From Phycisphaerae bacterium (GTDB lineage: Bacteria > Planctomycetota > Phycisphaerae > Sedimentisphaerales > Anaerobacaceae), in assembly GCA_030615025.1 (NCBI GenBank), contig JAUXAB010000007.1, positions 1-64,000 on the forward strand: a stretch of DNA of 64,000 bases, written 5' to 3'. Below are positions 12,558 to 34,328 of this stretch, piece by piece. Both the position numbers and the translations under genes were made by a program. Numbering within the stretch: the stretch's first letter is position 1; each line of letters opens with the position of its first letter. Under the pieces are notes generated by a model that searched no databases, was not told where the DNA came from, and saw nothing but the letters and a program-made list of their open reading frames with translations.

Positions 12558-15500
12558 TCAAACTCCGACCTGCACATCGGTCTTCACCCCCGGCCCGATG
12601 CGTATAACCGAACCGGCAGGCGCAGCGTCAACAGCCTCCTTAATCGAACTGTACATAGTACTCTTACCCGCACTAACGACAACAATCCTGCCGCCTCCGG
12701 ACTCAGAGCTGCTTTGTTCAACTTCGACCTGCACATCGGTTTTATGAATGGCAGCGGTAGAGCCGACCCATTGGTCCGAATCTTTAAGTGCCTTAATAAG
12801 TTTTCCTGAAACCGACCTGCCCACCTCGTCCTGGGCTTGCATAAGTGCTTTCTCCACTGCCCACTTGATTGCATTGCCCTTTAGGTTCCGGGCAATAACC
12901 TTTCCATCCGGCCCAATCAATATCGCCGCAGGCCAGCTTCGCACGCCATACTTAGATGCTAACTCGGTTTTGTCCTCGCCATCCAAAGTCGTCTGATCCC
13001 AGCGCGCATTAAACATAGCAAGGTATTTTTGCAAGTCTGCCACCTTCCTTTTCTGCCGGACTAAACCGAGCATTACAAATCGCTTATCTGCACGGAAAGC
13101 TTCATATACCGCCTTGAGGTAGGTTAACTGATTCTCGCTGGGATTACTCCCAGCGACCCAGAAGTTAAGCAGTACAACCTTGCCTTGATGGTCAGCCAAT
13201 GTCCAGCTTTTGCCCCCAAGCGTTTCAACCTCAAACAGCGGTGCCTTGTCCCCAACCTTAAGCTCAGGCAGCGGCTCAGGAGGTTCTTGCTTGCCAACGG
13301 GTGGTCGTCCTAAGTAAATAACCGTGCGTTGTTTCCGTTTTTCCTCCCAGTCTTCTATCTGAAATTCCAGATGTATTGTCTGACCAGCAGCAACAGTGAT
13401 TTCTCTCTCGCCGAGTCTTCCGCTGCCTGCTGATGAGCTTTCATGACCCATTATTCTCACATTGCAGTTACCCACTGGTACATTGCGCAGCGTAAACTTG
13501 CCCTCGGCAAACGCAGCCCGGAATCCCCATCTCTTGTACCAAGATTCGCTCGTTTCGTTCACTCGCACGAAGGGGCCAGCAGGACGCACATCTATGATAA
13601 AAGACGGTATTGGGTTGTTGTCGCCATCTACGACCGTTCCTGCAATTGTGCCGCCAGCTGCTTCTTCGGCAGGCCAGGGCCCGAATTCAAAATTCACTTC
13701 CTTCTTGCCCTCAAAAACTTTGTTCCGCCGCAGGTATTGCCAGCGATAACCGACCACATCTTTCAGGGGCGCGTAAATCATACTCCCGATAAAGTAAGGA
13801 TAGTCCAAAGGCCGCATACCATAATAACCCTTTTCATTTGTTCTGGCATCCGGCGCGGCGATACTTTCCCCGATACCTCGATTCGGTTTAAACTCACGCA
13901 CCTGCACCGTGGCGTAGGGGACGGGACGCCCTTTGGCATCGCTGACTTTGCCATACGGCCCCAATTCCTCGGTAACCACATTCTTAGCATTTAGATGGCC
14001 TACCCCACGCAGGAAGCTTTGCACATTCCAGAACCGTGCTTTCTTGCTGAGAAACGTGGCCATCTCGATTTCGACGTGAGCGGGCTTGCCATCAGCTCGG
14101 ATCGTGACCGGTTTCGGCCAGTCAACCGACAAACCCACGGCATCAATACTTCTCGGATTCTTAGCCTCTGTAGCAAACAGATAGTAGGTTCCCGGCGGTA
14201 TTCCGGTTATCTCGAAAGATTCATTGACAGTGGTGAGATAATAGAACACCGGCTTGCCGGGCCAGCTCTCTACTGGAACAAAAAACAAATAAGCCAGGTG
14301 ATAAGAAGTGTCAGCCGTATCTCTCACAATCCCTTTCAAAATGCCTGGCCCCGGCTCGCTGTGCAGTCTCGGAATTCTCGGTCTTTGTTCCCCAAGCGTG
14401 CCTTCTACAGCCAGCTTGATCACCGGCATTAACCCCGTAACGATATTGCTGTCTTCCATCAATTTCGCCCCCCTCAGTTTCACAGCTTCACCCTCAACCT
14501 GCACATTCGTCTCAAAGCCGGGCTTGAGGGATGTTTTAGCTGTGTCGTCCAACACCTCCGGACATAAAAAATAGACATACATTGGTTGATAATCACCAGG
14601 TGGGCCGATTACGATTAATTGTTCATAGTTTTCATAATGGTCGATACGTGCATTGCCTCCAAGCCACCATGAATCCAAACGAACTGGCTTGTCTATACGG
14701 ACGATGATCGCCACAGGCAATTTCTTCCAGGAAGTAAATTCGATTTTCCTTTTACGCCTGTCGCGCGACAAAAGGTCATGATTGCTCGGTAAACTGTGGC
14801 GGTGGATGACCGCTACACGTTCGTTTTCGTCGATGGTTCGGCCAACCTTTACGCGAATGTCTTTCATCCCGCCGCCACGTTCACGCCAACGTGATTGCAG
14901 CGGCGTACCATCCGGCAGGTAATACATACCCGTAGCATTGACCAATTGGCTTGAACCCCATCCAACTTCATCCGGCGCACAATCGGTGCTCCTTCGCCAT
15001 AATGCACGATAGTGCCATACGGTAACTTCGCCTTGTGCATCAATGTGGTACAATCCCGCACCTGCAGGCCAATGTGTAGCCTGTTCCGGGTATTGCTTTT
15101 CGACTTGCTTTACCAGATCAAGCAATTGCTCAATCAGCTTGCGTTCGAAATCCTTTAGCGGCGGTGCTTGAATATTGTTTTCGGTTTTGATTTGCACATC
15201 GGTTTTCTTATCTTGTACTTGTCTCACCCTTAATTCAAAACTATCAATATCGCTGAAATCTGCGAATTTGCCCTGTGAGAATTGTATAGTTTCATCGCTA
15301 ACCAATGGAAACCCTTCAATTATTCCCGAGTTTTCAAATGTCTGATATAAGGGTAAGGTCTCTTCGGCATCAGCATCTCGAAGCTCAAGCCGAGACTCCC
15401 ATTTAGTTTTAGGGTATGAAGTAAGCGCTATTTGCAGCGAAGCTTTTAATTCGTTTTTGGTCTTTTCAAATTTAATCGACTGGCATTTGACGAAACCATC

Positions 15501-18500
15501 AGAAGACTGAAGATCGACGGGGATTTCCTTATCTAAAGAAAAAGTTCCTCGAAAAAGGCCTTTAAAAGCACCTCCCCTGGAACCGAGTGGTTGTTCGCCA
15601 GCACAAACCAGGGATTTCAATCCGTATTTGTCCACCAGTTTCTCAATATCACTTAAGCCGTAAGCAATACCCAACCAGGCCATAGATTTTGGCTCTGGCA
15701 TTGTTCCAGGCGCAAATGCCCATTCAAGGACAGTATTTTGCGGCTCCGGCAAATTTGCTAACATTGCGGAAAGGTCGTTAATATCATCCAGGTATTGTCC
15801 TTGAAAAGTGATTTTATCTTCATCGTCGAAAACTAATCGGGCATAGCTTGTTTGTTCTGTTACTTTACGCCAATTGTCAGCAACCTCAACCTGCACATCG
15901 GGCCTTTTATTGCTGGCACTGGCAGTGCCAAGTGCTTTGGCTACAGCCGATTTTATCTCTTCGGCTCGCAAATCCCCGGCAATAATCTTGCCATCGCCAC
16001 CAATCAGAATCGCGGTCGGAATGGCTCCCACCCCATACTGCTTGACTATTAGCGATTCAGACATATCGCCCAGGCAAGCGTGAGGCCATTTCAAACCATT
16101 ATCTGCTACAAATCTCTTTGCCTTGTCGAGGTCCCAATCCACCGACATCCCTATCATTGCAAATCGAGGATTAGCTGCAAAGGCCTCATATATTTTCTTT
16201 AGCTTCGGCATCTGGTCCAGGCAAGGCCGGCACCAGGTCGCCCAAAAATCCAGCAGCACGACCTTACCCCGGAAATCCTCAAGCCTGATGACTTTTCCAT
16301 CCAAAGACCTCGCCTCAAAAAGCGAAGCCGGGTCGCCAACCTCAGGATATGTCAGCAAGCTCATTCTGATATCGGGCAGGTGAATCGGTCGGGTGTCGTC
16401 GGTATCAACCTTAAATCCGGTGATAGCGACGGCTTCAAGGACGCCACGTCCACAGGAGACACTCTCGCCCAGCGGAGCATGGTAATTGACTACAAACTCA
16501 TATTCACCAGGCGGCATATTGTCAAACCTGAATGTTCCATTATCCTCAATATTCGCAATGAATCTTCTGTCAAAAGTCTTCGATCTTTCATAGACATTTG
16601 TTGCATCCCGCCACAGCCACAGAAATGACCTCTCTGACATATCCCTTATCTCATCCGGCAGCTTTGACTCCGGCTCGATACAATATGCAGCTGCATGCAA
16701 CCTGCGAGGGTTAGACATTCCCGCTTCGCCAGTTTCTCTGGCGCGTTCTGGAATCGGGTGGATGATTTTCCCAGTGACGGTTCGGCCTCTGCCGCCAATC
16801 TGGACTTTATAAGCTTCTCCGGGTTGAGGCTTAATGTACACCGGGTTGGATTGTTCCCAGCGAACAATCTGGCCTACTTGCAAAGGTATCGAAGGGACAT
16901 AATCGATAATGAAATGCTTATCACTGAAAGAAGTCCTGTCAAATAGCCACCTTATTGGCTGGGACTCATAATCTTCTGAGGATATTATAGGATTGACTGC
17001 CACGACAAACTCTCGGCTCTTTGTATCGGCAGAAGCAATAGTGCCTTCGATTTTGGCCCAGGGAATCAATTGGATTCGAGAACCGCTCTTAAAATCATTG
17101 GATTTTACGTGAGCATATCCGTCAGAGTGAACAACAACCATCAGCCCTTCTTCTCTGGTAGGATTCAGCTCAAATTGGCCATTTTCATTCGTTTCAACAA
17201 TAACTTCTGCTTGAGCAACCCAACCAGTCGCATCAAATCTCCCGTTTTTGATAAAAGCTTTTTTGTCCGGCCCAACCCAGCCAACTTCTGCCTTGACGGC
17301 GGGCCTGCCTTCGCGGTCAACTACAATCCCTTCCCAAGGCTCGGCCTTCGTAAGGCGTATAACAAACGGTTCGTATTTTCCCCCTAATTTGATCGGCGGC
17401 GTAATTTCGGGAAGATATCCCTTCGCCTCTATTTTGAGACAGGACGCTCCATCAAAGGGATAGGTTATATGATAACCGCTCCAAGTTTCAGCAAATGCGC
17501 CATCCTCTGAATTCACCTGCTTTTTATAGTGCCTGCTCCAATGGAACGATTCATCTACTGACTTCCATTTAACCCCGTTGACGACTTCAAAGCTTGTGAT
17601 GGGCTCTTCAGTTTCGGCATCTATAACTTTGCCGACAAACACGGGCGTTTTGTACATTACAATTTTGTCTCTGTGTGACAAATCTTCCGGCATCTCCTTG
17701 GAAAAACCCTGAAAACCGCTTCCTCTCTTGCCAAAATCAAACCTCAGCTTTCCTTCTTCCGGCAGATCCTCAATTTTGAAAAGCCCTTGTGAATCGGTCT
17801 CTGTCATGCGAGTTATACTACTACGCCGCTTGCCGACCCGCCAGTCACCGACATCGATTTTGACTCCTTCGATAGGGTTGCCGTCGACGTCGACTACCTG
17901 GCCTACGTAAGCTGTTCCGCCCTTCAAGCTGACCTCAATCGGTTCCATGCCGTCTTCGACTTCAACCGAGACAACTCGCGGTGCATATCCCACTGCTGAA
18001 ACAACTATGTCCTTGCTGCCGGCAGCTAATCCTCCGATGCTGAAAGAGCCGTCAGCTAATGTACGCGGGGTGGTGCAATTCTCGATTACCTCGCCGTAGG
18101 GCGTTGTACCTTCACCGCCTCCCGTATCAACCAGAGCGTTTTCAATAGGCTCACCTTGCTGATTCTTGACTACGCCTCTAAGCCACAGCCCCTGCTTCAT
18201 AACCATTACGTTGGTGCCGTTAAGAAGCTCCGCCGAAGAGGCTCTATACCCTGATTGCTCGATGTACTCTGGATGTAACAGACCGATCCTAAGATTAGAG
18301 AGATCCTTGGGCAAACGCCGCTTCCATCGGCCTTGCTCATCGGTCATGACTTTTTTGCCCCATACACCCATAGAGCCTTGCCATTTATACATCATCTGGA
18401 CTTCGACTCCCTGTATAGGATCACCCTGCTCGTTTACAACACGACCGCTGTAAAGCACTTTCCCATCATCGGTTTGCTCGGGCTGGCCCTCGCCGATTAC

Positions 18501-21500
18501 CAATCTTGGCATCGGTACGAAGATTTGATTATCTGACAAGGCTATAGCCTTGGTAACATATTTCTGCTCGCTCTCATTCGCATCGGCCAGCTTCGCCTGC
18601 ACAGTTAGGCTGGAGCCACACGGTATGTTGGAACTGTAATTCCCGTATTTGTCCGTTTTGCGATAGCACTCCGAATAATAACTGACACCCTGTTTTGTAT
18701 TTGTTATAAGCTCAACTTTTCTATCAGCCAATCCTTTTCCATCCGGGTCCACAACTCGGCCTTCCACTTCTGCTTCACGGAAATTGAGAATCACGTGGAT
18801 GGGCTGGCCAGTATAGTTCTCTGGTATGGTAAATAACCCCATAGCCTGCGATGGCTGTGAGTATGCGACCCATTTCTTCTGTTCCGGTGTGACATCCTCA
18901 AGTGTAAATCGGCCCTGTGTATCGCTGCGTATTCCTTTCCATATACTGGTTGATTGCGGGGCAATATAAACATTGCCGCGAAGCCTTCCTAATTTGTCGG
19001 TAGCGATGCCAGTGACGGTCTTTGAAATATCAAGAGCTCGTGGTTCAATTCGCTCAACCTGCACATCGGATTTCTGAACACCTGTTATGCCGATTTTCTT
19101 AAGCCAATTGGGATTGCAGTATTGCACGGGGCCTTCATTGAATAGAACATTTGTACTACCGGCTTTTTCAAGCAATGTCTTATCATAGGCTATTACCGTC
19201 TTCGACGTTTCCGTCAATGTTTTGCCTTTGCCAAGATATTCGATGTTTTCAAGCAGCCAATCCAACCATTCATCGGTATCGTAGGATTTAATTTGATCCA
19301 GCCTGTCAGGATATTCTGAGTTATGGTCATTTGCGTACGCAGTCAGTATTCTGTCTAAATATTGAAGTTTTTTGTTTGATATTCGACGTCGTGTCATTTG
19401 TTCAAGTCTCAAGAGAGCAGCTGATTTGGCTTCAGGTGAATCATCTTTTCTCAAAATAACTTTGTGTTCATATCTAATGTTTTCCTCTGATGTTTCAAAA
19501 GAGATCAATTCCAAATCAGAACCGATAAAATTTCCCTGTTTATTTGGCTTAACGTTTGTTACATCTTTTCCCGGAAATAGCATCGAAGTCGACTTGGACG
19601 TATTGGCAATAGATAAGCCACAAAGCCAGCCGGACAGCTTCCGGCCATATTGGTGGTAATTGTAACGAGGTTCTGAATTATCTACGTAAAAGCGGCATTT
19701 CAGTATGTCATACTTATGTTTTTCAATCATACTTTCATCTATAATTTTCTGAGCCGCAATCTCAGGATGCAAATCAGCCTGCCCCGAGACAACTTTCGTC
19801 GTCTTTAAGATTTGGAAGGTATTCTTCTCGCTTACTTCCGGGCTTAACTCGATATTCCAATGGTACTTCCAAACAGCAGGCTGAGCATATGCATTATCCG
19901 TTTGCTTGAACGCAACTATGCCATATTCTTTGGGACCTGTGGGTTGTTCTTTTTTTGCAGGAATAATGGGATCCGACAATAAAGTCTGCGCGACAAATTT
20001 GTATGAGCCGTTATCTTCTATCAGGTAAAAGGTCGAACCCAGGCTCATACCTTTATGGAAGTGGTAGTAAACAATTGCATGAGTCGGTGGTTCAGCAAAA
20101 CTTACATGTTCTTTTAATTTGTCCCAGTCTTCGTCCGTAAATTCACGAAAGGTCGCGAAAAACTTAAAGTCATACTGACCGCGGAGAAAAGTGCCCTCTT
20201 TTATTTTTTTGATGCGATTGTGAAGCATTCTTCTATTATTGCCGTCATTAAGCTGCTCCTTTGTGCCGTCGCTAAGCAGAGATATAAACGCATCTACATC
20301 TTTACTTTTGCGAATACGAAAGAGCTTATTTGCGAATTCTAATTGCCGGGGATTCGCCAGTTGCCCATGCTTGCTGACAAAGGTAGTGTCAATGAGCTCT
20401 TCAGGCGTGCCAATAAACTCAAGGGCATATCTAATCGACCCCTGTTTTTGATAGAGATTATTGTCATATTCACCCTCAACCTGCACATCGGGTTTAATCC
20501 CCGGTTGTAGGGATACATTCTTGAATGTTACCCACTCATAAGGCCGTGTTTCAAAGCGGAATTCCTTAACTTCATCCTGTAGCAATCCTGAAAAGCGTGC
20601 CTCAATTTGTTGCAATCCACTTGGACCGTGTCTAAATCCTCCAGAGCTGAGACGTATGTTACCAGTATGGTCAATAGCAACAACACGTGTAGCCCTGTCA
20701 GTCATATTGTGCGTCACACCAATCGTAACTCTGTCCTTGCTTGCTGTCACTGGCCGAGAAACGATGATTCCATTGGGACCGTCACCATATGAACCCATGT
20801 TCTTAAACACTTGGAATGTGTTCCACTTGCCCGAAGCAATACCGAACCTCAGTATTGTCGTTTCTTGAGACCTTGGCAATTTAACAGCCCGAACTCGGTA
20901 GCTCCTTCGTTGCTTGTCGCCTCGCCAAGGATAGCCCCCTCCGAAGGGCGAAACTGATGGAATGAATTTCCATTTGGTATCAACACGGGTTTCAGGTAAA
21001 TCTGACAGATGAATAGCAAATTCATAGCACTGTTGCTCTTCATCACTCTTACCCTTACCATTCATGCGGTCATATGGGGCAGTCTCTAATGTCGAACCGT
21101 CCGGTTTCCACCATGGTTGATTCCATGATGGGTTGTAGGAAATTCCAACCAGTTCTACGGTTATCCCACTGTGCAATCTAACTGCGAACAGCTTACCAGC
21201 TTGATTCTCGGCGGAATCAATTGCATCTTCCTCAGAAAGTGGGGTCCGACCATCTACTCTAAGGAAATTTGGGCCAAAATTGGAACGTCCGGCTTCGTCT
21301 ACTGGGTCACCTTGGCGAGGGGTAATCGTAACCGAACCTAACTGCTCTCCGGTGACAAACTCCGACCAGTGCTTTGCCCACCAGATTTGCCAGCGTTTTG
21401 CTACCTCTTCACGCAGATTACGCACGGCACCGACATCTTCAAGATCCTCACTTTCGGGCTCTCTGTAATGCTCGTATCCCTCGCTATGACCAGTTATTTT

Positions 21501-24500
21501 TTCCAAAGCTGCAGTAATTTCTCTGACGGCACGGCCGTAATCTACGACCTTACTTGGCTTTGTTGTATCAATATGATGTTCCATCATGAATTTGCGCAGC
21601 TCCCGATCTCCTATTTGCAGTGCGCAATCAGAGGTTCTCACAGGTGCCTTGGGCAATGTCCTGATCAGCACTGGAACTGCACGTGGATCGGTGATAGCCC
21701 GTAAGGTATACCCTATGGCCCGCATTGTTAAATCACGCTCAGTCCTGTCCAATTCAGCCACGAGTTCCGGCACGGCAGGTTTGCCTATTTCTACTAATTC
21801 CTTAATTGCTGCAACCCACTGATCAAATCCACTAAATACCGTGGGCATGTGTCGCAACACATACACCAGCTCACGAACCCGCTGTTGTTGATCTGCTTCG
21901 GGATTTGTGTTTATCTCAGTGATAGACCCTCTTTCTGCTTTTGCCATCGGCAGCGTCGCAACAAAGATATCCTCCGGCTTTTCACCCTCAACCTGCACAT
22001 CGGTTTTGAAATTCGGCTTAAGAGAGACGTTCTTGAATGTCAACCACTGGAAAGGACGAGCCTGTAGGTAGAACCACTTAACCTGCTCGAGAGGGATATC
22101 GAATTCCGATTTACAAAGCCGCATTTCACGCCCAGGATTACTATATTTACTGGGCTCGTACACTTTCCCATCTTTGCCTTTGGCAACGATACGGCAGTCA
22201 TAGTCCCCGCCCAAAAGATGTGTGGCGGATATGTGTATATATCCATTATCCTCACGGGCCTCGTGATAGATCACATCTCCCTGGGTAATGCTGTCAAGGG
22301 TATGTGCACCTCTCGTTGCAGGTGCGCCAGCAGCCACGCTTTTCCATGGCCCTGTTGCAACTCCAAGTTGAAGATTGGTGCTCTGAACAGCTTTCGGAAA
22401 CGCAGCCTCGATGACCTGGATTGGTCTGAGCCTCTTTCTCTCTTTGTCTGTGTAGTCTGGCTCGAATCTGCTCTCACGAGCATCTTTCAACACCCAGGAG
22501 AACCGTATATTTTGAAGTACGTCATCGTCGAATCTAAGGGCTAAAAGCCTGAGAAACTGATTATCTTCTGGAACGATCGCATCATCGAAGTCATAATCGC
22601 GAAATCCATCTGCCTCAATAGAACTGCCGTCGGGCCGCCACCACTGCTTGCCTTCGCTCGGATGCTCACAAATTCCAACCAACTCAACCGTCACACCATT
22701 AGGCAGTGTCGCCTTATTATCCACCGCTTTGATAACCACCCCTCCCACATCCCATTTATTCTCGCCAGTCCCTTTTGTGCCCGTTCCAACCTCAACCTGC
22801 ACATCGGTTTTAGCTCCCGGCCGAAGCGAAACATTCTTGAAAGTTACCCACTGATACGGCCGAGTCTGAAACTGAAACTCCTTGATATTGTCCAGCAGGA
22901 TATTAAAATCAACCGTCGTTTGGCGCATTTTACCCGCTGAACCCCAACTCCTGCGTGCAGGAGTATGTAGATTACCATCTAAATCAATCGCAACAATTCG
23001 ATGGCTGTATTCGAGAAAGTCATCCGATATGATAAGCTTTGTTTCTTTACCTGGCTGGAAAGCTTTGGAAAAAGTAATTCCCCATTCGCCGTGCCCTATG
23101 CTCATCATGCCGCTGCCGTCATGCGTTGCCTTTGTTTCCCAGTTGCCGGCCGCTGCGCCCAGCCGCATGGACGTCGTAGTTAGATTTTCATCGACATGAA
23201 CCTTTTGGGCTCTCATATTACTAATCGCCTGGCCTTGTGAGCCCACCACTTCAAGGGATGCTCCGCCGTACGACCCATCAATTTCTCCCCATTTGAAAGT
23301 CATATCCTCTGGCCCATTCACTCTTGCCGCTATAGCAAAGGCTTTGCCACGTGCGGCAACAGTGCCACTCTTTTTCACATGGATTTGCTCTTCAAGGTCT
23401 GTCCCATCCGGCCGCCACCACTGTTTACCTTCGCTCGGATGCTCACAAACGCCCACCAGCTCAACCGTCACACCATTGGGTAGAGTTGCTTGATACGTTC
23501 CCGGAGGAATTAACAGGTCATATTTGAATTCCATATTTATAAAACCGATGCTCCGGCAGCGCTCAGACAGGTTTTCTATAGGTTCTTGTTGGCGTTGGAA
23601 TTCCTTTGTCGTACGCACACGAATATAAGGAAATGGATCTTGCTTCATCAGCTCACCAATCCGGGCCACAACCTTACCTACATTGCGGTAGGTTTTACCT
23701 TCCAGCTGATAAATGGGTTCTTCCTTCTGCCCCCACATATAAAGGGTATGAGTAACAATAGGTTTTCCATTTTCATCTAATGATACAGGATTACGAATAT
23801 CTTTTTCCCACTCACCTTTTGCCATTGGCAGCAGGATTGCACCGGCAATAATAACGGCAAGCACACCTACAATCCCAATCTTTGCACTTTTAGGCATCGG
23901 CCGACCAAGGATATGCTTGATTCGTCCGGCAAGGGCACTCTTGGATTCCACAACACCTATCAGTCGCAGACTCAAAGCCGGCTGCTTAAAAGCCAACTTC
24001 GCAACGCTCACGAGAGTTTGCGGGTACTGCTTGGCCTTCTCACCCATCGCCACAAGCACAGCCTCATCAACGGCCTGCTCACGTACCCTTCGAATCACGC
24101 AATTGGCAAGCCAGAGCAGCGGATTATAAAAATAGATAATCTGCAAAACGGTTTGAACCAGATTGACCCACAAATCGCCTCGCTTGATATGGGCAAGCTC
24201 ATGCATCAAAACAGCCCGCAGACGGCCAGCGCCTAAACTTGAAAGCAGATTCCGCGGCAGCAAAATCATCGGCCTAATTAACCCACACACCGCCGGGCTC
24301 GTCGCGTTAGCCGAGACCTTTAAGCCAAGTTTTCTTTTCACTCCCATACGCTCGCAGCAATACACAAGTGCATCATTCATCAAACGGTTCGCTTCTTTGG
24401 CCTGTGCAACAAGGCCACGCACAAAGAGCGCCCGCTGCAATAGCAATAATCCCATCACTATCACGACAGCGAGCCAAATCAAAAATACAATCCCCTGCCA

Positions 24501-24944
24501 AGATAGTGGTGTCACCGACGCCGGCGGCGGACTGACCGGCTCTGCCGCTACCGGCTCAGCACCCGGTATCATCGGCAAAACCGCCGGCGTATGCCTGCTC
24601 ACTTCGATAGGCACAATGTTGATAATTGGCAGCATATCTGTCGGAGCCGGCTCCACCGCTTCCGCCTCTGTCTCTACACCCATCTCGCTCTCGGTTACAT
24701 ACATCAGCTTGTCACCAAACCAGTATCCCAGACTCAAAGGCGATGACAACGAAGTCGGCAAAACCAGTTTGGCCAGCACCAGCATCCATATCCAATACCG
24801 AAACACCGCCTTGACTTTCTTGCGCAGCAGCAAATCGGCCAGCAGCAAAATCACTATCAGCACGCTGGACTGGATTAGCATCGGCAAGGCGAATTCCACA
24901 AATATGTGTCCGGCCGAATTTATATGTTCTACTATCGTATTCAT
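12558..24944 (-). CDS. giant modular M56-family (BlaR1-like) membrane metallopeptidase, 4,128 residues
   Basis: Residues 1-375 form an M56 peptidase with membrane segments near 15-42, 46-66, 148-176 and 353-375 and the zinc motif HELAH at 248-252. Everything after about 375 should be exported. In order: three copies of a module of about 230 residues (484-713, 745-981, 1254-1485; shared TLPNGVTVELVG, WWRPDG and WVTFKNVSL); a HEAT-like stretch (1020-1100) before the third copy; an unknown region ending in a pseudopilin-like part with YANDHNSEYPDRL (1485-1959); carboxypeptidase-regulatory-like beta-sandwiches (1960-2840); a TlpA-like thioredoxin domain with WCRPC (C2905, C2908); two unknown modules (3015-3248, 3248-3479); more beta-sandwiches; and a second thioredoxin fold whose cysteines are serines (S3933, S3936). 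It ends in a 53-residue fragment like the start of a pectinesterase/beta-helix. Nine K/T-DVQVE seams separate modules. The blaI gene 53 bases upstream indicates a BlaR1/BlaI-type sensor pair; the ligand is unknown. No internal stop or frameshift was seen. Confidence 0.85.
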   Translation of the reverse strand: MNTIVEHINSAGHIFVEFALPMLIQSSVLIVILLLADLLLRKKVKAVFRYWIWMLVLAKLVLPTSLSSPLSLGYWFGDKLMYVTESEMGVETEAEAVEPAPTDMLPIINIVPIEVSRHTPAVLPMIPGAEPVAAEPVSPPPASVTPLSWQGIVFLIWLAVVIVMGLLLLQRALFVRGLVAQAKEANRLMNDALVYCCERMGVKRKLGLKVSANATSPAVCGLIRPMILLPRNLLSSLGAGRLRAVLMHELAHIKRGDLWVNLVQTVLQIIYFYNPLLWLANCVIRRVREQAVDEAVLVAMGEKAKQYPQTLVSVAKLAFKQPALSLRLIGVVESKSALAGRIKHILGRPMPKSAKIGIVGVLAVIIAGAILLPMAKGEWEKDIRNPVSLDENGKPIVTHTLYMWGQKEEPIYQLEGKTYRNVGKVVARIGELMKQDPFPYIRVRTTKEFQRQQEPIENLSERCRSIGFINMEFKYDLLIPPGTYQATLPNGVTVELVGVCEHPSEGKQWWRPDGTDLEEQIHVKKSGTVAARGKAFAIAARVNGPEDMTFKWGEIDGSYGGASLEVVGSQGQAISNMRAQKVHVDENLTTTSMRLGAAAGNWETKATHDGSGMMSIGHGEWGITFSKAFQPGKETKLIISDDFLEYSHRIVAIDLDGNLHTPARRSWGSAGKMRQTTVDFNILLDNIKEFQFQTRPYQWVTFKNVSLRPGAKTDVQVEVGTGTKGTGENKWDVGGVVIKAVDNKATLPNGVTVELVGICEHPSEGKQWWRPDGSSIEADGFRDYDFDDAIVPEDNQFLRLLALRFDDDVLQNIRFSWVLKDARESRFEPDYTDKERKRLRPIQVIEAAFPKAVQSTNLQLGVATGPWKSVAAGAPATRGAHTLDSITQGDVIYHEAREDNGYIHISATHLLGGDYDCRIVAKGKDGKVYEPSKYSNPGREMRLCKSEFDIPLEQVKWFYLQARPFQWLTFKNVSLKPNFKTDVQVEGEKPEDIFVATLPMAKAERGSITEINTNPEADQQQRVRELVYVLRHMPTVFSGFDQWVAAIKELVEIGKPAVPELVAELDRTERDLTMRAIGYTLRAITDPRAVPVLIRTLPKAPVRTSDCALQIGDRELRKFMMEHHIDTTKPSKVVDYGRAVREITAALEKITGHSEGYEHYREPESEDLEDVGAVRNLREEVAKRWQIWWAKHWSEFVTGEQLGSVTITPRQGDPVDEAGRSNFGPNFLRVDGRTPLSEEDAIDSAENQAGKLFAVRLHSGITVELVGISYNPSWNQPWWKPDGSTLETAPYDRMNGKGKSDEEQQCYEFAIHLSDLPETRVDTKWKFIPSVSPFGGGYPWRGDKQRRSYRVRAVKLPRSQETTILRFGIASGKWNTFQVFKNMGSYGDGPNGIIVSRPVTASKDRVTIGVTHNMTDRATRVVAIDHTGNIRLSSGGFRHGPSGLQQIEARFSGLLQDEVKEFRFETRPYEWVTFKNVSLQPGIKPDVQVEGEYDNNLYQKQGSIRYALEFIGTPEELIDTTFVSKHGQLANPRQLEFANKLFRIRKSKDVDAFISLLSDGTKEQLNDGNNRRMLHNRIKKIKEGTFLRGQYDFKFFATFREFTDEDWDKLKEHVSFAEPPTHAIVYYHFHKGMSLGSTFYLIEDNGSYKFVAQTLLSDPIIPAKKEQPTGPKEYGIVAFKQTDNAYAQPAVWKYHWNIELSPEVSEKNTFQILKTTKVVSGQADLHPEIAAQKIIDESMIEKHKYDILKCRFYVDNSEPRYNYHQYGRKLSGWLCGLSIANTSKSTSMLFPGKDVTNVKPNKQGNFIGSDLELISFETSEENIRYEHKVILRKDDSPEAKSAALLRLEQMTRRRISNKKLQYLDRILTAYANDHNSEYPDRLDQIKSYDTDEWLDWLLENIEYLGKGKTLTETSKTVIAYDKTLLEKAGSTNVLFNEGPVQYCNPNWLKKIGITGVQKSDVQVERIEPRALDISKTVTGIATDKLGRLRGNVYIAPQSTSIWKGIRSDTQGRFTLEDVTPEQKKWVAYSQPSQAMGLFTIPENYTGQPIHVILNFREAEVEGRVVDPDGKGLADRKVELITNTKQGVSYYSECYRKTDKYGNYSSNIPCGSSLTVQAKLADANESEQKYVTKAIALSDNQIFVPMPRLVIGEGQPEQTDDGKVLYSGRVVNEQGDPIQGVEVQMMYKWQGSMGVWGKKVMTDEQGRWKRRLPKDLSNLRIGLLHPEYIEQSGYRASSAELLNGTNVMVMKQGLWLRGVVKNQQGEPIENALVDTGGGEGTTPYGEVIENCTTPRTLADGSFSIGGLAAGSKDIVVSAVGYAPRVVSVEVEDGMEPIEVSLKGGTAYVGQVVDVDGNPIEGVKIDVGDWRVGKRRSSITRMTETDSQGLFKIEDLPEEGKLRFDFGKRGSGFQGFSKEMPEDLSHRDKIVMYKTPVFVGKVIDAETEEPITSFEVVNGVKWKSVDESFHWSRHYKKQVNSEDGAFAETWSGYHITYPFDGASCLKIEAKGYLPEITPPIKLGGKYEPFVIRLTKAEPWEGIVVDREGRPAVKAEVGWVGPDKKAFIKNGRFDATGWVAQAEVIVETNENGQFELNPTREEGLMVVVHSDGYAHVKSNDFKSGSRIQLIPWAKIEGTIASADTKSREFVVAVNPIISSEDYESQPIRWLFDRTSFSDKHFIIDYVPSIPLQVGQIVRWEQSNPVYIKPQPGEAYKVQIGGRGRTVTGKIIHPIPERARETGEAGMSNPRRLHAAAYCIEPESKLPDEIRDMSERSFLWLWRDATNVYERSKTFDRRFIANIEDNGTFRFDNMPPGEYEFVVNYHAPLGESVSCGRGVLEAVAITGFKVDTDDTRPIHLPDIRMSLLTYPEVGDPASLFEARSLDGKVIRLEDFRGKVVLLDFWATWCRPCLDQMPKLKKIYEAFAANPRFAMIGMSVDWDLDKAKRFVADNGLKWPHACLGDMSESLIVKQYGVGAIPTAILIGGDGKIIAGDLRAEEIKSAVAKALGTASASNKRPDVQVEVADNWRKVTEQTSYARLVFDDEDKITFQGQYLDDINDLSAMLANLPEPQNTVLEWAFAPGTMPEPKSMAWLGIAYGLSDIEKLVDKYGLKSLVCAGEQPLGSRGGAFKGLFRGTFSLDKEIPVDLQSSDGFVKCQSIKFEKTKNELKASLQIALTSYPKTKWESRLELRDADAEETLPLYQTFENSGIIEGFPLVSDETIQFSQGKFADFSDIDSFELRVRQVQDKKTDVQIKTENNIQAPPLKDFERKLIEQLLDLVKQVEKQYPEQATHWPAGAGLYHIDAQGEVTVWHYRALWRRSTDCAPDEVGWGSSQLVNATGMYYLPDGTPLQSRWRERGGGMKDIRVKVGRTIDENERVAVIHRHSLPSNHDLLSRDRRKRKIEFTSWKKLPVAIIVRIDKPVRLDSWWLGGNARIDHYENYEQLIVIGPPGDYQPMYVYFLCPEVLDDTAKTSLKPGFETNVQVEGEAVKLRGAKLMEDSNIVTGLMPVIKLAVEGTLGEQRPRIPRLHSEPGPGILKGIVRDTADTSYHLAYLFFVPVESWPGKPVFYYLTTVNESFEITGIPPGTYYLFATEAKNPRSIDAVGLSVDWPKPVTIRADGKPAHVEIEMATFLSKKARFWNVQSFLRGVGHLNAKNVVTEELGPYGKVSDAKGRPVPYATVQVREFKPNRGIGESIAAPDARTNEKGYYGMRPLDYPYFIGSMIYAPLKDVVGYRWQYLRRNKVFEGKKEVNFEFGPWPAEEAAGGTIAGTVVDGDNNPIPSFIIDVRPAGPFVRVNETSESWYKRWGFRAAFAEGKFTLRNVPVGNCNVRIMGHESSSAGSGRLGEREITVAAGQTIHLEFQIEDWEEKRKQRTVIYLGRPPVGKQEPPEPLPELKVGDKAPLFEVETLGGKSWTLADHQGKVVLLNFWVAGSNPSENQLTYLKAVYEAFRADKRFVMLGLVRQKRKVADLQKYLAMFNARWDQTTLDGEDKTELASKYGVRSWPAAILIGPDGKVIARNLKGNAIKWAVEKALMQAQDEVGRSVSGKLIKALKDSDQWVGSTAAIHKTDVQVEVEQSSSESGGGRIVVVSAGKSTMYSSIKEAVDAAPAGSVIRIGPGVKTDVQVGV
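12567..22808 (-). repeat. nine copies of a codon-conserved DVQV seam inside the M56 gene
   Basis: The 15-base core (minus strand ACC GAT GTG CAG GTT, Thr-Asp-Val-Gln-Val) occurs at 12567-12581, 12726-12740, 14496-14510, 15189-15203, 15888-15902, 19056-19070, 20478-20492, 21990-22004 and 22794-22808. The first residue is T713, T981, P1485, S1959, P3015, T3248, T3479, T4069 and T4122. GTG encodes the first Val in all nine, GAT the Asp in eight and CAG the Gln in eight, although synonymous codons are free. Five are preceded by a P(G/N)-x-(K/E) turn. Each lies at a visible change of domain type. Confidence 0.9.
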
Positions 24945-24997: not shown

Positions 24998-25399
24998 TTA
25001 TCTTTTTTTGCGCACACCGCTTCTTCTTCGCTTCTTTCTGATTAGCGATTCCAGTTCAGCCAACTGCTTCTGAGACAGTTTATGCTCATCCAGCAGAAAC
25101 TGCATCATCGGCGTAAGGGCTCCGTTGAACGCCCTTTTGACCGCGCGCATAATTTCGCCTTTTTGCGCTTGGACCCTTGTGATTGCCGAACTGTACAGAA
25201 TAAGATTGCGGAATCTCTCTGTAGTCAGCAGCCCTTTGGTCACCATCCGATCCATCAGTGTCTTGACGGTGCTGTAGTGCCAGTTCTTTCGGCCTTCCAA
25301 TTCTTCCTGAATCGTGGGAGCAGCACACGGCTCATTTTTCCAGACGGTCTGGATAATTGCCCATTCGGCTTCGGTAAGTTCAGGATTTCTATTTGCCAT
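24998..25399 (-). CDS. blaI: BlaI/MecI/CopY-family transcriptional repressor
   Basis: A 133-residue winged-helix repressor. The N-terminal DNA-binding part reads LTEAEWAIIQTVWKNEPCAAPTIQEEL and STVKTLMDRMVTKGLLTTE, characteristic of BlaI/MecI. The C-terminal half (dimer helix, LTPMMQFLLDEHKLSQKQLAELESLI) ends in a basic tail. AAAGGAG precedes the ATG by seven bases. It lies upstream of the M56 gene and is probably cotranscribed with it. A canonical BlaI-type operator lies in its own promoter, so autorepression is likely. In known systems the M56 partner triggers cleavage of BlaI. Confidence 0.93.
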   Translation of the reverse strand: MANRNPELTEAEWAIIQTVWKNEPCAAPTIQEELEGRKNWHYSTVKTLMDRMVTKGLLTTERFRNLILYSSAITRVQAQKGEIMRAVKRAFNGALTPMMQFLLDEHKLSQKQLAELESLIRKKRRRSGVRKKR

Positions 25400-28884: not shown

Positions 28885-30219
28885 TTACAAACGCCATGGA
28901 CTACGCATCGCACGCTTTAGCATCCTGTTCGCCGCCTCGCTTTTGACGAAACGTTCTTTTTTCGGGTCCCATTTGAGTTTTTGTTCAAGCCGAATCGCAA
29001 TATCGCTGATCTGGCATATTATGTCCCCCCGGACAGACGCATCAACCGGAGATATCGTCTCAGCCCGGCTTTTCACGCAGTCCAGCAGATTCCTCACGTG
29101 GTTACCGCTCTTATGCAGGTGGATATCGTTCGGCCCAAACTCCGTCGAGAGCAGATCCTTCGGATGCGCGTTAATGCCCCCCCGGTCAACGTGCACCCAT
29201 CCTTTAGTGCCTTCAAACGCCGTCCCGTGACCGGTCGTTCTTCCATAACGCTTTTTCCATTCTTCCGGATATGGATCGCCGGTAAAGTTCATAGTAACGC
29301 CGCTGGCATACTTGCACACGATATTCCAGTTCCTCGCCGTATCGCATACACCGTCGGGGCTGGGCCAGACGCCCGTCCCTTCGATCTCCAACGGCCCCGC
29401 AACTTTTTCACCACCGCCCCAGATGGCAATGTCGACAGGATGAATCCCCCAGCCGGCGATAAACCCAAGCGCATAATCGGAAATAAACCACCACAGCCTA
29501 TTGGAGCAGCGATCCTTCGTGTAAGGCGTGTAAGGAGCGGGCCCCAGCCACATATCGTAATCAATCCAGTCCGGCTCAGGCACAGGTTTCGGCGACCCGC
29601 CTGAAGCGCTGCCGGGAGCCCATACGTTGATGGTGTGCAGCTTTCCTATCCGCTCGTTCAAAGCCAGTTCACACGCAAAACGGAAATTCCGACTGGAGCG
29701 CTGCTGCGTGCCGAACTGAAACTTTCTGCCGTAGCGGTGCACCGCTTCTCGCATCGCCTGGTCTTCGGCCACAGACAGGCCCATCGGTTTTTCCATGTAG
29801 ACATCTTTTCCCGACCTAACCGCTGCCAGCGACACAAGAACATGCCAATGGTCAGTCGTAGCCACAAGAACAACATCAATATCTTCGCGTCCTACCAGTT
29901 CACGAAAGTCTTTGTAAGTCGCGCATCCATCGCTTTGATAGTGCTTATTCACCAGATTCTGGGCCGCATCGCGCGCCTGTTCTTTAAGGTCGCAAATCGC
30001 CACTACCTGAGCATCCCTTTGCCCAAGGAAATTCCGCATCACCCCGCTGCCCTGAGGCCCAACGCCAACGCAACCAACAATGATTCGATTACTTGCAGCA
30101 ACGTTGCCGGCCTTACCCAGCGCTGATGACGAAACTAAATATGGAAAACCAATTGCCCCCACAGCGGTATCTGTGGCCCGCTTCAAAAATTTTCGTCGAC
30201 TAATTCTTATTTGTCTCAT
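28885..30219 (-). CDS. Tat-exported Gfo/Idh/MocA-family oxidoreductase (copy 1)
   Basis: A 444-residue protein. It has a twin-arginine signal (SRRKFLKRATDTAVGAIGFPY), a Rossmann fold starting GCVGVGPQGSGVM, the family motif DVYMEKPMGLS and a C-terminal alpha/beta domain. It probably oxidises or hydrolyses sugars with a tightly bound NAD in the periplasm, as known for Tat-exported family members; the substrate is unknown. It is the fourth in transcription order of four tandem paralogs. Its signal peptide DNA is nearly the same as that of copy 2, while the catalytic middle differs. Confidence 0.92.
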   Translation of the reverse strand: MRQIRISRRKFLKRATDTAVGAIGFPYLVSSSALGKAGNVAASNRIIVGCVGVGPQGSGVMRNFLGQRDAQVVAICDLKEQARDAAQNLVNKHYQSDGCATYKDFRELVGREDIDVVLVATTDHWHVLVSLAAVRSGKDVYMEKPMGLSVAEDQAMREAVHRYGRKFQFGTQQRSSRNFRFACELALNERIGKLHTINVWAPGSASGGSPKPVPEPDWIDYDMWLGPAPYTPYTKDRCSNRLWWFISDYALGFIAGWGIHPVDIAIWGGGEKVAGPLEIEGTGVWPSPDGVCDTARNWNIVCKYASGVTMNFTGDPYPEEWKKRYGRTTGHGTAFEGTKGWVHVDRGGINAHPKDLLSTEFGPNDIHLHKSGNHVRNLLDCVKSRAETISPVDASVRGDIICQISDIAIRLEQKLKWDPKKERFVKSEAANRMLKRAMRSPWRL

Positions 30220-30348
30220 AGCAAAAACTCCCTTACCTCATAATTAACCAATATAACGAGTTTACATAATCAATAATCAGTAATCAATTTCATAATCGCC
30301 ACGGACTTCGCATCGGCTGTTTCAACATCCGGTTTGCCTGGTCGTCGT
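30115..30348. repeat. duplicated block A: end of copy 2, intergenic DNA and start of copy 1
   Basis: About 230 bases running from the signal peptide region of copy 1, through the intergenic DNA (TTACCTCATAATTAACCAAT onward), into the last codons of copy 2. It is nearly identical by eye to 31485-31719, whereas the central coding parts of these genes are much more divergent. Confidence 0.85.
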
Positions 30349-31588
30349 TAATAAACACTTCCTTCCCGGGATTCCATTTTAGCCTGCGTCCCAGTCGCAC
30401 CGCGATATCACTTAGCTGGCACAGCGTATCAGAACGCACCGCTACATCCACAGGAGCTACGGTCTGTCGCCTGGTTCTCATACAGTCAAGCAAGTTCTTA
30501 CTGTGATTGTCGCTCACCGGCAGATGAATTTCATCAGGACCCATCGTCTCTTTTAAAAGCGATGCCGGAGAGGCGCTGATACCCTGGCGATTAACGTGGA
30601 CCCATCCTTTCTCTCCCTCAAAACGGGCTCCCTGCCTGTTCTTTGTGTTATCGGTGAAGTGAATGGTAACACCGTTAGGATACCGCAGGTTTACCTCCCA
30701 GCTCTTAGCACAATCCAATACTCCCTCATCAGGGAATACCGCCGTACCTTCAACTTCAGTCGGCCCGGTTAATTCTGTCCCGTTTCCCCACTGAGCAATA
30801 TCCAAGTGGTGAACACCCCAAGCTGATATAAATCCAAGCGAATACAGGCTAATTAGTTCGTGTGTCCATCCGTTTAAGATAGCTTCAGTAAAGGGAGACC
30901 ATTGTGCCGGACCAAGCCAAGCATGGTAATCCAAGCCTTGCGGAACTGGTTTTTGGGGGAACTTCTTATTGAAATCTCCAGCCGGTACGCCCACCCTAAT
31001 GGTGTGGACTTTTCCGATTCTGCCGTTTCGCGCTAATTCACAGGCAAAACGGAAATTGCGGCCCGACCGCTGCTGCGTTCCAAACTGAAAGACACGTCCA
31101 TACCGGTGAATAGTTTGACGGAGTATCTTCGCCTCTGCGAAACTCAACCCCACGGGCTTCTCCATGTACATGTCCTTGCCTTGCTTGGCTGCCTCGGTGG
31201 CCATTATCACATGCCAAAATACAGGTGAGGCGATGAGAACCGCATCGATATCCGATCTGGATAGAAGTTCAGAAAAATCATGGTAAGTTTTACATACTTT
31301 TTTGTTATATTTCTCATCAACCATCCTCCGGGCCAGTTGGTATCTTTCTTTGTTAACGTCGCACACCGCCACGACCTGGGCATCTGATAACTCCAGGAAG
31401 CTTTGCATGACTGCCCTGCCGCGTCCTCCCACTCCGATAACACCCATGACAATCCTATCGCCGGCGGCAACTCTGCCGGCCTTACCCAGCGCCGAAGACA
31501 AAACTAAATATGGAAAACCAATTGCCCCCACAGCGGTACCTGTGGCCCGCTTCAAAAAATGCCTTCGACTAATTCTTTTTTGTCTCAT
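30290..31588 (-). CDS. Tat-exported Gfo/Idh/MocA-family oxidoreductase (copy 2)
   Basis: A 432-residue paralog with SRRHFLKRATGTAVGAIGFPY as Tat signal, MGVIGVGGRGRAVM as nucleotide-binding loop and DMYMEKPVGLS as the family motif. The C-terminal end ANRMLKQPMRSPWRL also ends copy 3. GGGAG lies eight bases before the ATG, in an upstream stretch of about 70 bases that is nearly identical to the one before copy 1. Membership of the same operon as sulfatase and isomerase implies action on a common glycan. Confidence 0.92.
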   Translation of the reverse strand: MRQKRISRRHFLKRATGTAVGAIGFPYLVLSSALGKAGRVAAGDRIVMGVIGVGGRGRAVMQSFLELSDAQVVAVCDVNKERYQLARRMVDEKYNKKVCKTYHDFSELLSRSDIDAVLIASPVFWHVIMATEAAKQGKDMYMEKPVGLSFAEAKILRQTIHRYGRVFQFGTQQRSGRNFRFACELARNGRIGKVHTIRVGVPAGDFNKKFPQKPVPQGLDYHAWLGPAQWSPFTEAILNGWTHELISLYSLGFISAWGVHHLDIAQWGNGTELTGPTEVEGTAVFPDEGVLDCAKSWEVNLRYPNGVTIHFTDNTKNRQGARFEGEKGWVHVNRQGISASPASLLKETMGPDEIHLPVSDNHSKNLLDCMRTRRQTVAPVDVAVRSDTLCQLSDIAVRLGRRLKWNPGKEVFINDDQANRMLKQPMRSPWRL

Positions 31589-31719
31589 AACAAAAACTCC
31601 CTTACCTCATAATTAACCAATATAACGAGTTTACATAATCAATAATCAGTAATCAATTTCACAATCGCCACGGACTTCGCATCGGCTGTTTCAACATCCG
31701 GTTTGCCTGGTCATCGTCA
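31485..31719. repeat. duplicated block B: end of copy 3, intergenic DNA and start of copy 2
   Basis: The partner of the block at 30115-30348. The noncoding 70 bases between genes differ at only a few positions, including the shared CAATAATCAGTAATCAATTT, which points to recent tandem duplication or gene conversion at the gene junctions. Confidence 0.85.
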
Positions 31720-32960
31720 ACAAATCGCTCTTTTTCAGGATTCCATTTCAACGGCCGGCCAAGCCGGTATGCAATATTACCAAGGTGACAAACTGTTACC
31801 GAGCGGCAACCTATCTCTTCGTCGCAAACCGTTTTGCTGCGCGTTCGGATACATTCCAGGAAATTGCCTTGATGGCTTCTGCTTTCATAAAGGTGTATCT
31901 CATCGGGCTTGATTTTTTGCCTTGCGAGAGTCTCCGGCCAGGTGCGTAAATGTCCACGATTAACCTCAATCTTTCCTTCGGCACCCGTAAACAAAACACC
32001 GTTGGCCTTATCGCGAGTCATAATGACACCATTAGCGTACCTGTAAGTGAGCACCTTGAAGTCCTTACCATCAGGTGGAACAACTTCAACCGGGCCGCTG
32101 TCGTCCATGCCAAGACCCCATTGAGCGATATCAAAGTGGTGCGGCCCCCAGTTTGTCATCTCACCGCCGCCATAATCCCAATAGCCCATCCAGCCATGCC
32201 GTAAGAGGCCCGGATGGAAGGGCCTCCATGGTGCCGGACCCAGCCACATCTCCCAATCGATACAATCCGGCACAGGCTCTCCCGGCAGATTACATTCACG
32301 GGCAGGACCGCCAACACCAATCGTTACCGATTTGACGTCGCCGATGTAACCATTGCGGACCAGCTCGCAGGCAAAGCGAAAATTCCTGTCGGAACGCTGC
32401 TGCGTACCGATCTGATACACACGACCATAACGTTTGACCGCGTTAGCCATTGCGCGAGCTTCAGAGATAGTAAGTGACATCGGCTTCTCGCAGTAAATAT
32501 CCTTGCCCGCCTTAGCAGCAGCGATATTTATTATGGCATTGGAGTGCGACGGCGTGGCAGTCACCACCGCATCAATATCATCCCGTGCCAAAAGCTCTCG
32601 AAAATCTTTGTAGGCGGCACAATCCTTATTGCCGTAGTATTTGTTGGCGATGTCACGAGCCTGATTTAGCCACCTATCATCGACATCACAGACCGCCACC
32701 ATCTGCACTTCGGCACTGCCCATAAAACCTCCGGGCTCAACCCAATTCAAATTTGGGACGGTACCACCACGCCAACCCATATGGGCCGTTCCCTGGTTAC
32801 CCATCCCAATGCAGGCCACTACAATTCGATTACTCGCGGCAACGCTGCCGGCCTTACCCATGGCCGAAGACGAAGCCAAATATGGAAAACCAAGTGTTCC
32901 CACAGCCGCACCGGCAGCCCGTTTCAAAAACCGCCTTCGACCAATTCCTCTTCGTCTCAC
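31659..32960 (-). CDS. Tat-exported Gfo/Idh/MocA-family oxidoreductase (copy 3)
   Basis: A 433-residue paralog. The GTG at 32960 was chosen because GGGAGTTCTTATT-GTG-AGACG aligns base by base with GGGAGTTTTTGTT-ATG-AGACA at copy 2; the longer frame to 32981 would overlap that SD sequence. It has GRRRFLKRAAGAAVGTLGFPY (Tat), VACIGMGNQGTAH (Rossmann) and DIYCEKPMSLT. It has an insertion after the Rossmann loop (RGGTVPNLNWVEPGG) that copies 1, 2 and 4 lack, suggesting a different substrate pocket. Confidence 0.9.
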   Translation of the reverse strand: MRRRGIGRRRFLKRAAGAAVGTLGFPYLASSSAMGKAGSVAASNRIVVACIGMGNQGTAHMGWRGGTVPNLNWVEPGGFMGSAEVQMVAVCDVDDRWLNQARDIANKYYGNKDCAAYKDFRELLARDDIDAVVTATPSHSNAIINIAAAKAGKDIYCEKPMSLTISEARAMANAVKRYGRVYQIGTQQRSDRNFRFACELVRNGYIGDVKSVTIGVGGPARECNLPGEPVPDCIDWEMWLGPAPWRPFHPGLLRHGWMGYWDYGGGEMTNWGPHHFDIAQWGLGMDDSGPVEVVPPDGKDFKVLTYRYANGVIMTRDKANGVLFTGAEGKIEVNRGHLRTWPETLARQKIKPDEIHLYESRSHQGNFLECIRTRSKTVCDEEIGCRSVTVCHLGNIAYRLGRPLKWNPEKERFVDDDQANRMLKQPMRSPWRL

Positions 32961-33014
32961 AATAAGAACTCCCTTCTCCAATTACTAAACGAGTTCAACG
33001 GTCAATAATCAGTT

Positions 33015-34328
33015 CTACAGCCACCAGGGACTGCGCATCGGCCTTGTAAGCATCCGGTTTGCCCGGTCGTCGTTAATAAACTCTTCTTTGTCCGGATCCC
33101 ACCGCAGCTTCCTGCCAAGGCGCATCGCGATGTCACTTAGCTGACAGAGTGTATCCGAGCGTACCGTCACTTCAACCGGAGCCACCGTTCTGGCCCGGGT
33201 CTTGACGCAGTCCAGAAAATTTTTCTGGTGGTGATTGCTTACCGGCAGATGAACTTCGTCCGAGCCGATTTCCTTCTTGAGTAACTCCTTCGGATGAGCG
33301 TCCACCTTACCGCCCAGATGCTCTTCCTTGACGAACACCCAGCCGTCGGTTCCTTCAAAACGAACACCAAGCGGATTCCTTTTCCCGTCGGTAAAATTCA
33401 TTGTCACGCCATTGGCAAACTTAAGATTCACGTCCCAGCCGGTCGCGTTGTTGCATGTCCCGTCCGGCGGATACTCACCGACCCCCTCCACCTCCAAAGG
33501 CCCCGTAAGGTCCGTCCCGTTACCCCACGTCGCAATATCAATCGTATGAATGCCACAACCGGCAATCCATCCAAGAGAGTAATCACTGATATGCCACCAG
33601 TGACTGTTGCTCACCCGGTTCGGATGATAGGGTGCCCACGGTGCAGGCCCAAGCCAGAGATCATAATCGATCGAATCAGGAACCGGCATCGCCGGAAAGT
33701 TCTCGCTGACTATGCTGTACCGCGAAGCCACCGTGATTTTGCGAATCTTACCGACCCGGCCGCTCAAAACCATCTCGCAGGCAAAACGGGAATTCCGACT
33801 CGACCGCTCCTGCGTGCCGAACTGAAACACCCGGCCATACCGATTAACCTCCTGGCGCAGCACCTGTCCCTGCTCAACGCTCATGCCTAACGGCTTCTCA
33901 CAATATACATCCTTGCCCGACCGCACCGACTGTAAAGCGTGCGGCACGTGCCAGTGGTCCGTAGAACCAACCACAACCGCGTCTATATCGCCGCGTTCGC
34001 AAAGTTCGCGGAAATCATTGTACCCTGTGCACACTTTTTTGCCGTAGTGCTTATCCACCCGCTGCAGGGCCCTATCGCGATTTGGCCGTTTCACATCGCA
34101 CACCGCCACTACCTGCGCGTCAGCCAAGTTAATAAAATTACTCAGCAATGCCCCTCCTCGCCCGCCTGTGCCGATAAAGCCCATCACAATTCGATTGCTC
34201 GCAGCAACGTTGCCGGCCTTACCCAATGCCGAGGACGAAATTATATATGGAAAACCTATCACCCCCACAGCGGCACCCGCTGCCTTTTTCAAAAAACCCC
34301 GCCGTGTAATATCTTTATACCTCTGCAT
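33015..34328 (-). CDS. Tat-exported Gfo/Idh/MocA-family oxidoreductase (copy 4, first of the operon)
   Basis: A 437-residue paralog: TRRGFLKKAAGAAVGVIGFPY as Tat signal, MGFIGTGGRGGALL as nucleotide-binding loop and DVYCEKPLGMS as motif. The ATG at 34328 with AAGGAG nine bases upstream is preferred over the one at 34346, which would overlap the SD sequence. It is the first gene of the cluster transcribed toward ThuA. The WYL-type regulator upstream (34650-35630) is on the same strand, separated by 321 bases. Confidence 0.92.
   Translation of the reverse strand: MQRYKDITRRGFLKKAAGAAVGVIGFPYIISSSALGKAGNVAASNRIVMGFIGTGGRGGALLSNFINLADAQVVAVCDVKRPNRDRALQRVDKHYGKKVCTGYNDFRELCERGDIDAVVVGSTDHWHVPHALQSVRSGKDVYCEKPLGMSVEQGQVLRQEVNRYGRVFQFGTQERSSRNSRFACEMVLSGRVGKIRKITVASRYSIVSENFPAMPVPDSIDYDLWLGPAPWAPYHPNRVSNSHWWHISDYSLGWIAGCGIHTIDIATWGNGTDLTGPLEVEGVGEYPPDGTCNNATGWDVNLKFANGVTMNFTDGKRNPLGVRFEGTDGWVFVKEEHLGGKVDAHPKELLKKEIGSDEVHLPVSNHHQKNFLDCVKTRARTVAPVEVTVRSDTLCQLSDIAMRLGRKLRWDPDKEEFINDDRANRMLTRPMRSPWWL

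Follow-up and report, generated by a model that had tools for sequence, protein, structure and literature searches.

The closest precedent for the genes described here is DOMO, the movement of domains within and between restriction-modification specificity genes by recombination at short flanking repeats (Furuta et al. 2011, PMC3077401). In one H. pylori group these repeats are 27, 53 and 14 bp long. Domains are both lost and gained by DOMO, and it is as unresolved there as it is here whether the mechanism is homologous or site-specific (PMC3077401). DOMO exchanges alternative versions of one target-recognition domain type between two positions, and its flanking repeats are of two or three kinds. 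The genes reported here carry a short DNA sequence, which we call the seam, at the boundaries of their modules. Like DOMO genes, they have short DNA repeats flanking the domains that move, and the same domain is found at different positions or in different genes with breaks at the repeats (module 7 and the partner-switch test, below). Unlike DOMO genes, they use a single universal seam to link domains of many unrelated families, with up to about ten in an array, in different genera and behind three M56 head types, and have a terminal seam that anchors the array. Seam genes carry the logic of DOMO over to long arrays of unrelated domains, and do so across genera.

The gene from which we started lies in a window of 64,000 nucleotides, the whole stretch of DNA analyzed here. 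Its locus resembles BlaR1/MecR1 with BlaI/MecI in having an M56 head with HEXXH, a BlaI-family gene upstream and an exported C-terminal part. Unlike BlaR1/MecR1, the encoded protein continues for about 3,750 residues of shuffled modules beyond its last strong hydrophobic segment, and a Pfam search of it found no penicillin-binding or transpeptidase-type C-terminal domain.

Integron cassette arrays and shufflons have a unit-plus-site layout, fixed ends and direct repeats at the joints, and a seam array shares all three properties. Unlike integrons, however, the seam loci of 14 genomes contain no linked tyrosine integrase (PF00589). Unlike both integron and shufflon sites, seams are in-frame coding DNA inside one open reading frame (ORF) and tolerate decay, and, unlike in shufflons, no site is inverted, all seams sharing the strand and frame of their gene.

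A search of the available literature on BlaR1 in Planctomycetes and on giant seam-joined sensors found nothing relevant. Usually, the assembly of bacterial multidomain proteins has to be inferred from domain boundaries that are old and blurred. In the seam genes the joint can be seen directly, as a near-identical stretch of DNA, and the exchanges, which span genera, are recent enough to be read at the level of single bases. The system lends itself to direct tests of module capture, movement and loss, possibly offers a ready-made joint for protein engineering, and indicates that Phycisphaerae have a fast-evolving class of giant BlaI-M56 sensors.

A giant modular gene beside BlaI

A preliminary description of the window had proposed a single frame of 4,128 residues with an M56 head, and this was borne out. 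One uninterrupted ORF with an ATG start runs from 24944 to 12558 on the minus strand (4128 codons, no internal stop), and its head matches PF05569 with E 7.6e-47 and has both the HELAH zinc motif and the ExxxD partner. Three strong hydrophobic segments (residues about 22-40, 151-169 and 356-374) all lie before residue 375. The BlaI partner named in the same description is also present, directly upstream. The features are as follows, from the 5' side of the gene; throughout, the window's own genome is labeled G000, relatives' genomes G001 and so on, and contigs carry _C numbers.

24998..25399, minus strand: BlaI / Penicillinase_R repressor gene, directly upstream of the giant gene (PF03965, E 1.4e-27)
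12558..24944, minus strand: giant M56 (BlaR1-like) modular gene, 4128 aa (ORF and Pfam)
23820..24944, minus strand: M56 metallopeptidase head, containing the hydrophobic segments and the zinc motif HELAH (Pfam stretch 19-345 and motifs)
22791..23495, minus strand: domain A copy 1, a double beta-sandwich that ends in seam 1 (profile match; AlphaFold pLDDT 92)
22791..22811, minus strand: seam 1, AAAACCGATGTGCAGGTTGAG (seam scan)
21987..22715, minus strand: domain A copy 2, up to seam 2 (profile match)
21987..22007, minus strand: seam 2 (seam scan)
20475..21986, minus strand: module 3, HEAT-like stretch and domain A copy 3 (profile; weak HEAT-like match)
20475..20495, minus strand: seam 3 (seam scan)
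19053..20474, minus strand: module 4, 90.8% identical in nucleotides to a G003 module, the alignment stopping at seam 4 (nucleotide alignment)
19053..19073, minus strand: seam 4 (seam scan)
15885..19052, minus strand: module 5, CarboxypepD_reg repeats and thioredoxin with WCRPC (Pfam)
15885..15905, minus strand: seam 5 (seam scan)
15186..15884, minus strand: module 6
15186..15206, minus strand: seam 6, a DVQI variant that travels with module 7
14493..15185, minus strand: module 7, common to G004_C85 from seam to seam, 82.9% identical over 737 nt (nucleotide alignment)
14493..14513, minus strand: seam 7, an NVQV variant (seam scan)
12723..14492, minus strand: module 8, containing a second thioredoxin-like domain without CxxC
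12723..12743, minus strand: seam 8 (seam scan)
12585..12722, minus strand: module 9, a truncated version of a longer module of G001_C461
12564..12584, minus strand: seam 9, the terminal seam, where 3'-flank homology with G003 and G001 starts

Among the module labels proposed earlier, the triplicated domain (then put at about 230 residues) was recovered by profile search as three copies of about 240 aa, which we call domain A, and the thioredoxin proved to be one of two AhpC-TSA/thioredoxin stretches, alongside CarboxypepD_reg in six. The HEAT-like stretch has only weak support (CpcF, E 2.6e-4), and the pseudopilin-like and beta-helix labels found no Pfam match in the window protein. The first thioredoxin, in module 5, retains its WCRPC motif. 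In module 8 (window 12831-13259) the CxxC of the second thioredoxin-like domain is gone (NFWVAGSNPSENQ), and this domain may serve binding rather than catalysis.

Beside the giant gene of G003 stands an orthologue of the window BlaI, 87% identical to it. The window protein itself scores 124 bits against the blaR1_generic model, below the NCBIfam BlaR1 cut-offs (400 for this model). The other neighbors scanned are ordinary genes, for example those for an HD protein, SAICAR synthetase, a sulfatase and ThuA, and none is a mobile-element gene. As the best explanation, we take the giant gene to be the sensor component of a BlaI-M56 pair, with an exported part built as a module mosaic. By analogy with the BlaR1 family, we infer that the modules would act as ligand sensors and that the M56 head would cleave BlaI upon a signal; there are no ligand, signaling or proteolysis data. 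The earlier idea that adding modules widens the range of ligands sensed likewise remains an inference, in the absence of ligand or signaling data. We also observed that G000 has eight M56 matches, and that the relatives G034, G021 and G027 have giant M56 genes of up to 3,376 aa without the seam.

The seam and its codons

The giant gene contains nine in-frame DVQV-type seams, and, as had been reported, the first Val is encoded by GTG in all nine. Five seams match GATGTGCAGGTT exactly, three differ from it by one base (two ...GTC, one AATGTG...), and the remaining one reads GATGTGCAAATC. When G000 was searched genome-wide for the 21-nt seam with up to three mismatches, eight of the nine seams were recovered, the more diverged seam 6 being missed, and outside the giant gene there was no match except one with three mismatches on contig C63 (GATTTTCAG), which looks like chance. 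Dispersed repeats (RPE, REP, uptake or Chi-like sequences) were rejected as an identity for the seam, since it is limited to this gene in G000 bar that one match.

Seams are shared among relatives. A degenerate codon-level pattern occurred in 16 of 89 genomes of this Phycisphaerae family, mostly in M56 genes with a few chance-like matches, and a nucleotide pattern allowing one mismatch or fewer occurred in 21 of the 89, some of these matches being unrelated; the reversed control gave none. Among 84,980 species scanned, 13 stretches were found, 11 of them in Planctomycetota metagenome-assembled genomes (MAGs). A position-weight matrix, itself built from DNA, gave 82 matches in 425 kb of fetched relatives' loci compared to one in shuffled DNA, nearly all in the frame of the gene. 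Counted by protein motif, each of 17 genomes has at least one seam. All genuine seams inspected lie in the same frame of an open ORF and on the same strand as the gene, and no convincing out-of-frame or non-coding seam was found in the relatives' loci scanned. Giant M56 genes of seamless relatives have almost no exact repeats of at least 14 nt in unlike contexts, which indicates that the seam is not a general property of such genes.

The modules are mostly unrelated to one another, and only about 20 of 81 seams follow domain A, most following unrelated modules. Several other seam genes also end in a seam, often at the C terminus. In G026, a seam (ESDVQVKGRGL) closes a 430-aa protein (L036:11773-13062) that weakly matches retropepsin-like aspartyl proteases and is encoded separately from the adjoining M56 gene. 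A 593-aa protein of G092 (L067:2559-4337), which apparently has a signal peptide, combines domain A-like sequence and a seam without any M56 head, so seams are not confined to M56 genes.

Codon conservation was observed throughout this set. In 45 seams defined by protein motif, the codons were ACC in 26 of 28, GAT in 41 of 43, GTG in 42 of 45, CAG in 41 of 45 and GTT in 30 of 40, compared to background frequencies of 0.25, 0.60, 0.25, 0.56 and 0.35, respectively, and GTG was the majority codon for the first seam Val in 16 of 17 genomes. These sites were picked by protein motif, yet DNA patterns had led to some of the loci, and seams within a gene are not independent of each other. The domain A-ending copies (n=20) provide an internal control: the Val of FKNVSL, nine or ten codons upstream of the seam Val, is encoded by GTT in 8, GTC in 7 and GTA and GTG in one each, while in the seam of the same copies Val is GTG in 17 of 18 and Thr is ACC in 16 of 16. 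Codon usage does not explain this pattern, because the two seam Val codons are fixed to different triplets, GTG and then GTT. Amino acid variants retain the surrounding bases, as in CCGCTGTGCAGGTTGAG (KSAVQVE), found in several genomes. The preliminary description would have been refuted by seam codons no more conserved than their flanks; instead, synonymous conservation in the seam was far above that of the flanks in the same domain copies. The seam is conserved as DNA, with codons kept beyond what the amino acids would require.

In origin, the seam peptide appears to be domain A's own terminal strand, which would later have come to stand at the ends of unrelated modules. This origin is suggested by the similar end strand of seamless relatives, whose domain A ends in FENVSLQPGHKTDVRIN, FRNISLQPGQRTKVRIE and similar sequences (a similar strand being KTDVRIN), together with an AlphaFold model of domain A (pLDDT 92), a double beta-sandwich with QVEVGT on its last strand. 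Comparison of domain A with structures in the PDB returned only generic Ig-like matches (Z ≤6.6 over ~72 residues), and we claim no relative from it; a sequence search of solved structures gave nothing convincing.

Evidence for module exchange between fixed ends

Breakpoints of similarity fall at seams: pairwise nucleotide alignments of modules begin and end there. At the 5' edge of window module 7, identity to G004_C85 is 29% left of the seam, 100% in the seam and 92% to its right, a switch across one 24-nt block. At the 3' edge of module 4, identity to G003 falls from 97% left of the seam to 21% on the right. Other pairs behave in the same way, with 89% then 30% across a seam between G003 and G016_C215, and 38% then 87% (5' edge) and 88% then 30% (3' edge) between G002 and G004_C85. 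Ends of protein HSPs lay near seams in 559 of 2174 cases, compared to 140 +/- 33 (maximum 259) for random positions, with the reservation that these counts are not independent. We also asked on which sides of a pair of seams the flanks are homologous. In a gap-tolerant test, 126 pairs were homologous only on the left, 42 only on the right and 8 two-sidedly; at least five of these eight are trivial (three domain A to domain A pairs and two overlapping seams of the same gene). This supersedes an ungapped test (0/30 two-sided), in which differing linker lengths had masked homology.

The earlier account asked whether other M56 proteins carry different modules between the same seams, and this partner switching is what we found. 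Relatives also have shared modules in another order: module 7 stands late in the window gene but right after the first domain A end in G004_C85, indicating that modules change position.

Modules are near-identical across genera and head types. A domain A copy common to G003 and G016_C215, which belong to different genera, has 94.2% nucleotide identity over 711 nt, with heads at 68.6%, and another, common to G003 and G099, has 91.6%, with heads at 72.7%. Modules 86-91% identical in nucleotides stand behind three M56 head types (G003, G002_C33 and G026_C102b) whose heads are only 24-37% identical in amino acids. Within G000, a search for donors of window protein residues 469-3398 returned only distant paralogues, with ~27-44% identity. 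With module identity exceeding head identity and only distant paralogues at home, the sequences point to exchange between genomes, which would have been the source of these modules rather than copying within one.

The ends of the array are constant: at 5' the M56 head with BlaI, at 3' the terminal seam. Synteny of the locus extends to G003, G004 and G099, where BlaI precedes the giant gene and a short ORF, an HD protein gene and a SAICAR synthetase gene follow it. Among the window, G003 and a G001 fragment, 3'-flank homology sets in exactly at the terminal seam, and the last window module, which has been cut and joined to this seam, is a truncated copy of one that runs on in G001_C461; both observations place the array between a constant head and this anchor.

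Explanations for the seam

The reading we consider probable is that the seam is a DNA-level, self-perpetuating joint for short-homology recombination, derived from the last strand of domain A. It would have arisen as the codons of that beta-strand, FKNVSLxPGxKTDVQVE, and then been copied to the edges of unrelated modules, where seams would supply 21-27 nt of near-identical, in-frame homology in one direction. Recombination between seams across genes and genomes would swap, move, delete and add modules with the frame kept, and each exchange would re-homogenize the seam, which would account for its conservation at the codon level. General short-homology recombination as the agent is inferred, and the model leaves unexplained how a module first gained a seam at its far side. 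It also has to accommodate that 21-27 nt of perfect homology is near the lower limit for RecA recombination. The single direction and frame of the seams could also be produced by selection.

A dedicated site-specific recombinase might instead recognize the seam and insert or excise cassettes of a module plus a seam between the fixed head and the terminal seam, in the manner of an in-frame integron or shufflon. If this were true, such a cassette system would be a protein-level counterpart of the integron, building new sensors. The seam-module-seam layout with fixed 5' and 3' ends would suit it, as would the terminal seams of several genes and the imperfect inverted arms AACC-GATGTGCA-GGTT around a most conserved core, GATGTGCAG. 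The arms are, however, variable as well as imperfect, seam sequences in relatives' loci decay gradually, and all seams have one orientation, with none found outside coding sequence. The search that found no tyrosine recombinase left serine recombinases and transposases outside its scope, and G003 and G008, both incomplete, appear to have little beyond Xer-like genes. The missing tyrosine recombinase, the gradual decay and the single orientation favor general recombination over a dedicated enzyme, which is unlikely but not excluded.

The preliminary description had left the seam as either a DNA-level junction or a linker or cleavage tag. The junction gained support from the codons, the identity switches and the differing modules, whereas the tag is weakly supported and we regard as improbable a purely protein-level feature (linker, cleavage or sorting tag) under peptide selection, with codon bias incidental or translational. 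Seams are always in frame, at module ends and often C-terminal, and single changes in them are somewhat biased to synonymous ones (omega-like 0.4-0.5), as such a feature would have it. Peptide selection would not fix two Val one codon apart to GTG and then GTT against codon usage, nor does it predict breaks of DNA identity at seams, and Asp to Ala and other changes occur with the neighboring codons unchanged. We give equally little weight to a passive relic, an end that domain A copies have in common and that tandem duplication and vertical descent have spread without a role in recombination. The seams that do follow domain A, and the similar strand of seamless relatives, fit a relic; it is contradicted by the majority that follow unrelated modules, by partner switching as the rule at seams, and by module identity above head identity across genera. 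Least credible of all is an assembly artifact in which separate genes were joined at short repeats. Seam genomes are indeed fragmented and often incomplete, and the named records are MAGs. Yet the same locus with its BlaI and HD-SAICAR synthetase flanks recurs in several independent MAGs with long intact ORFs (the G003 gene encodes 4353 aa), and the repeats, at 21-27 nt, fall below the k-mer length of final assembly graphs as usually built, so that a chimera is unlikely even without long reads.

Elsewhere in the window (28885-34346), the relatives matched by the GFO/IDH/MocA-type oxidoreductase at 28885-30219 are also matched by three further ORFs, at 30290-31588, 31659-32981 and 33015-34346, suggesting a tandem family.
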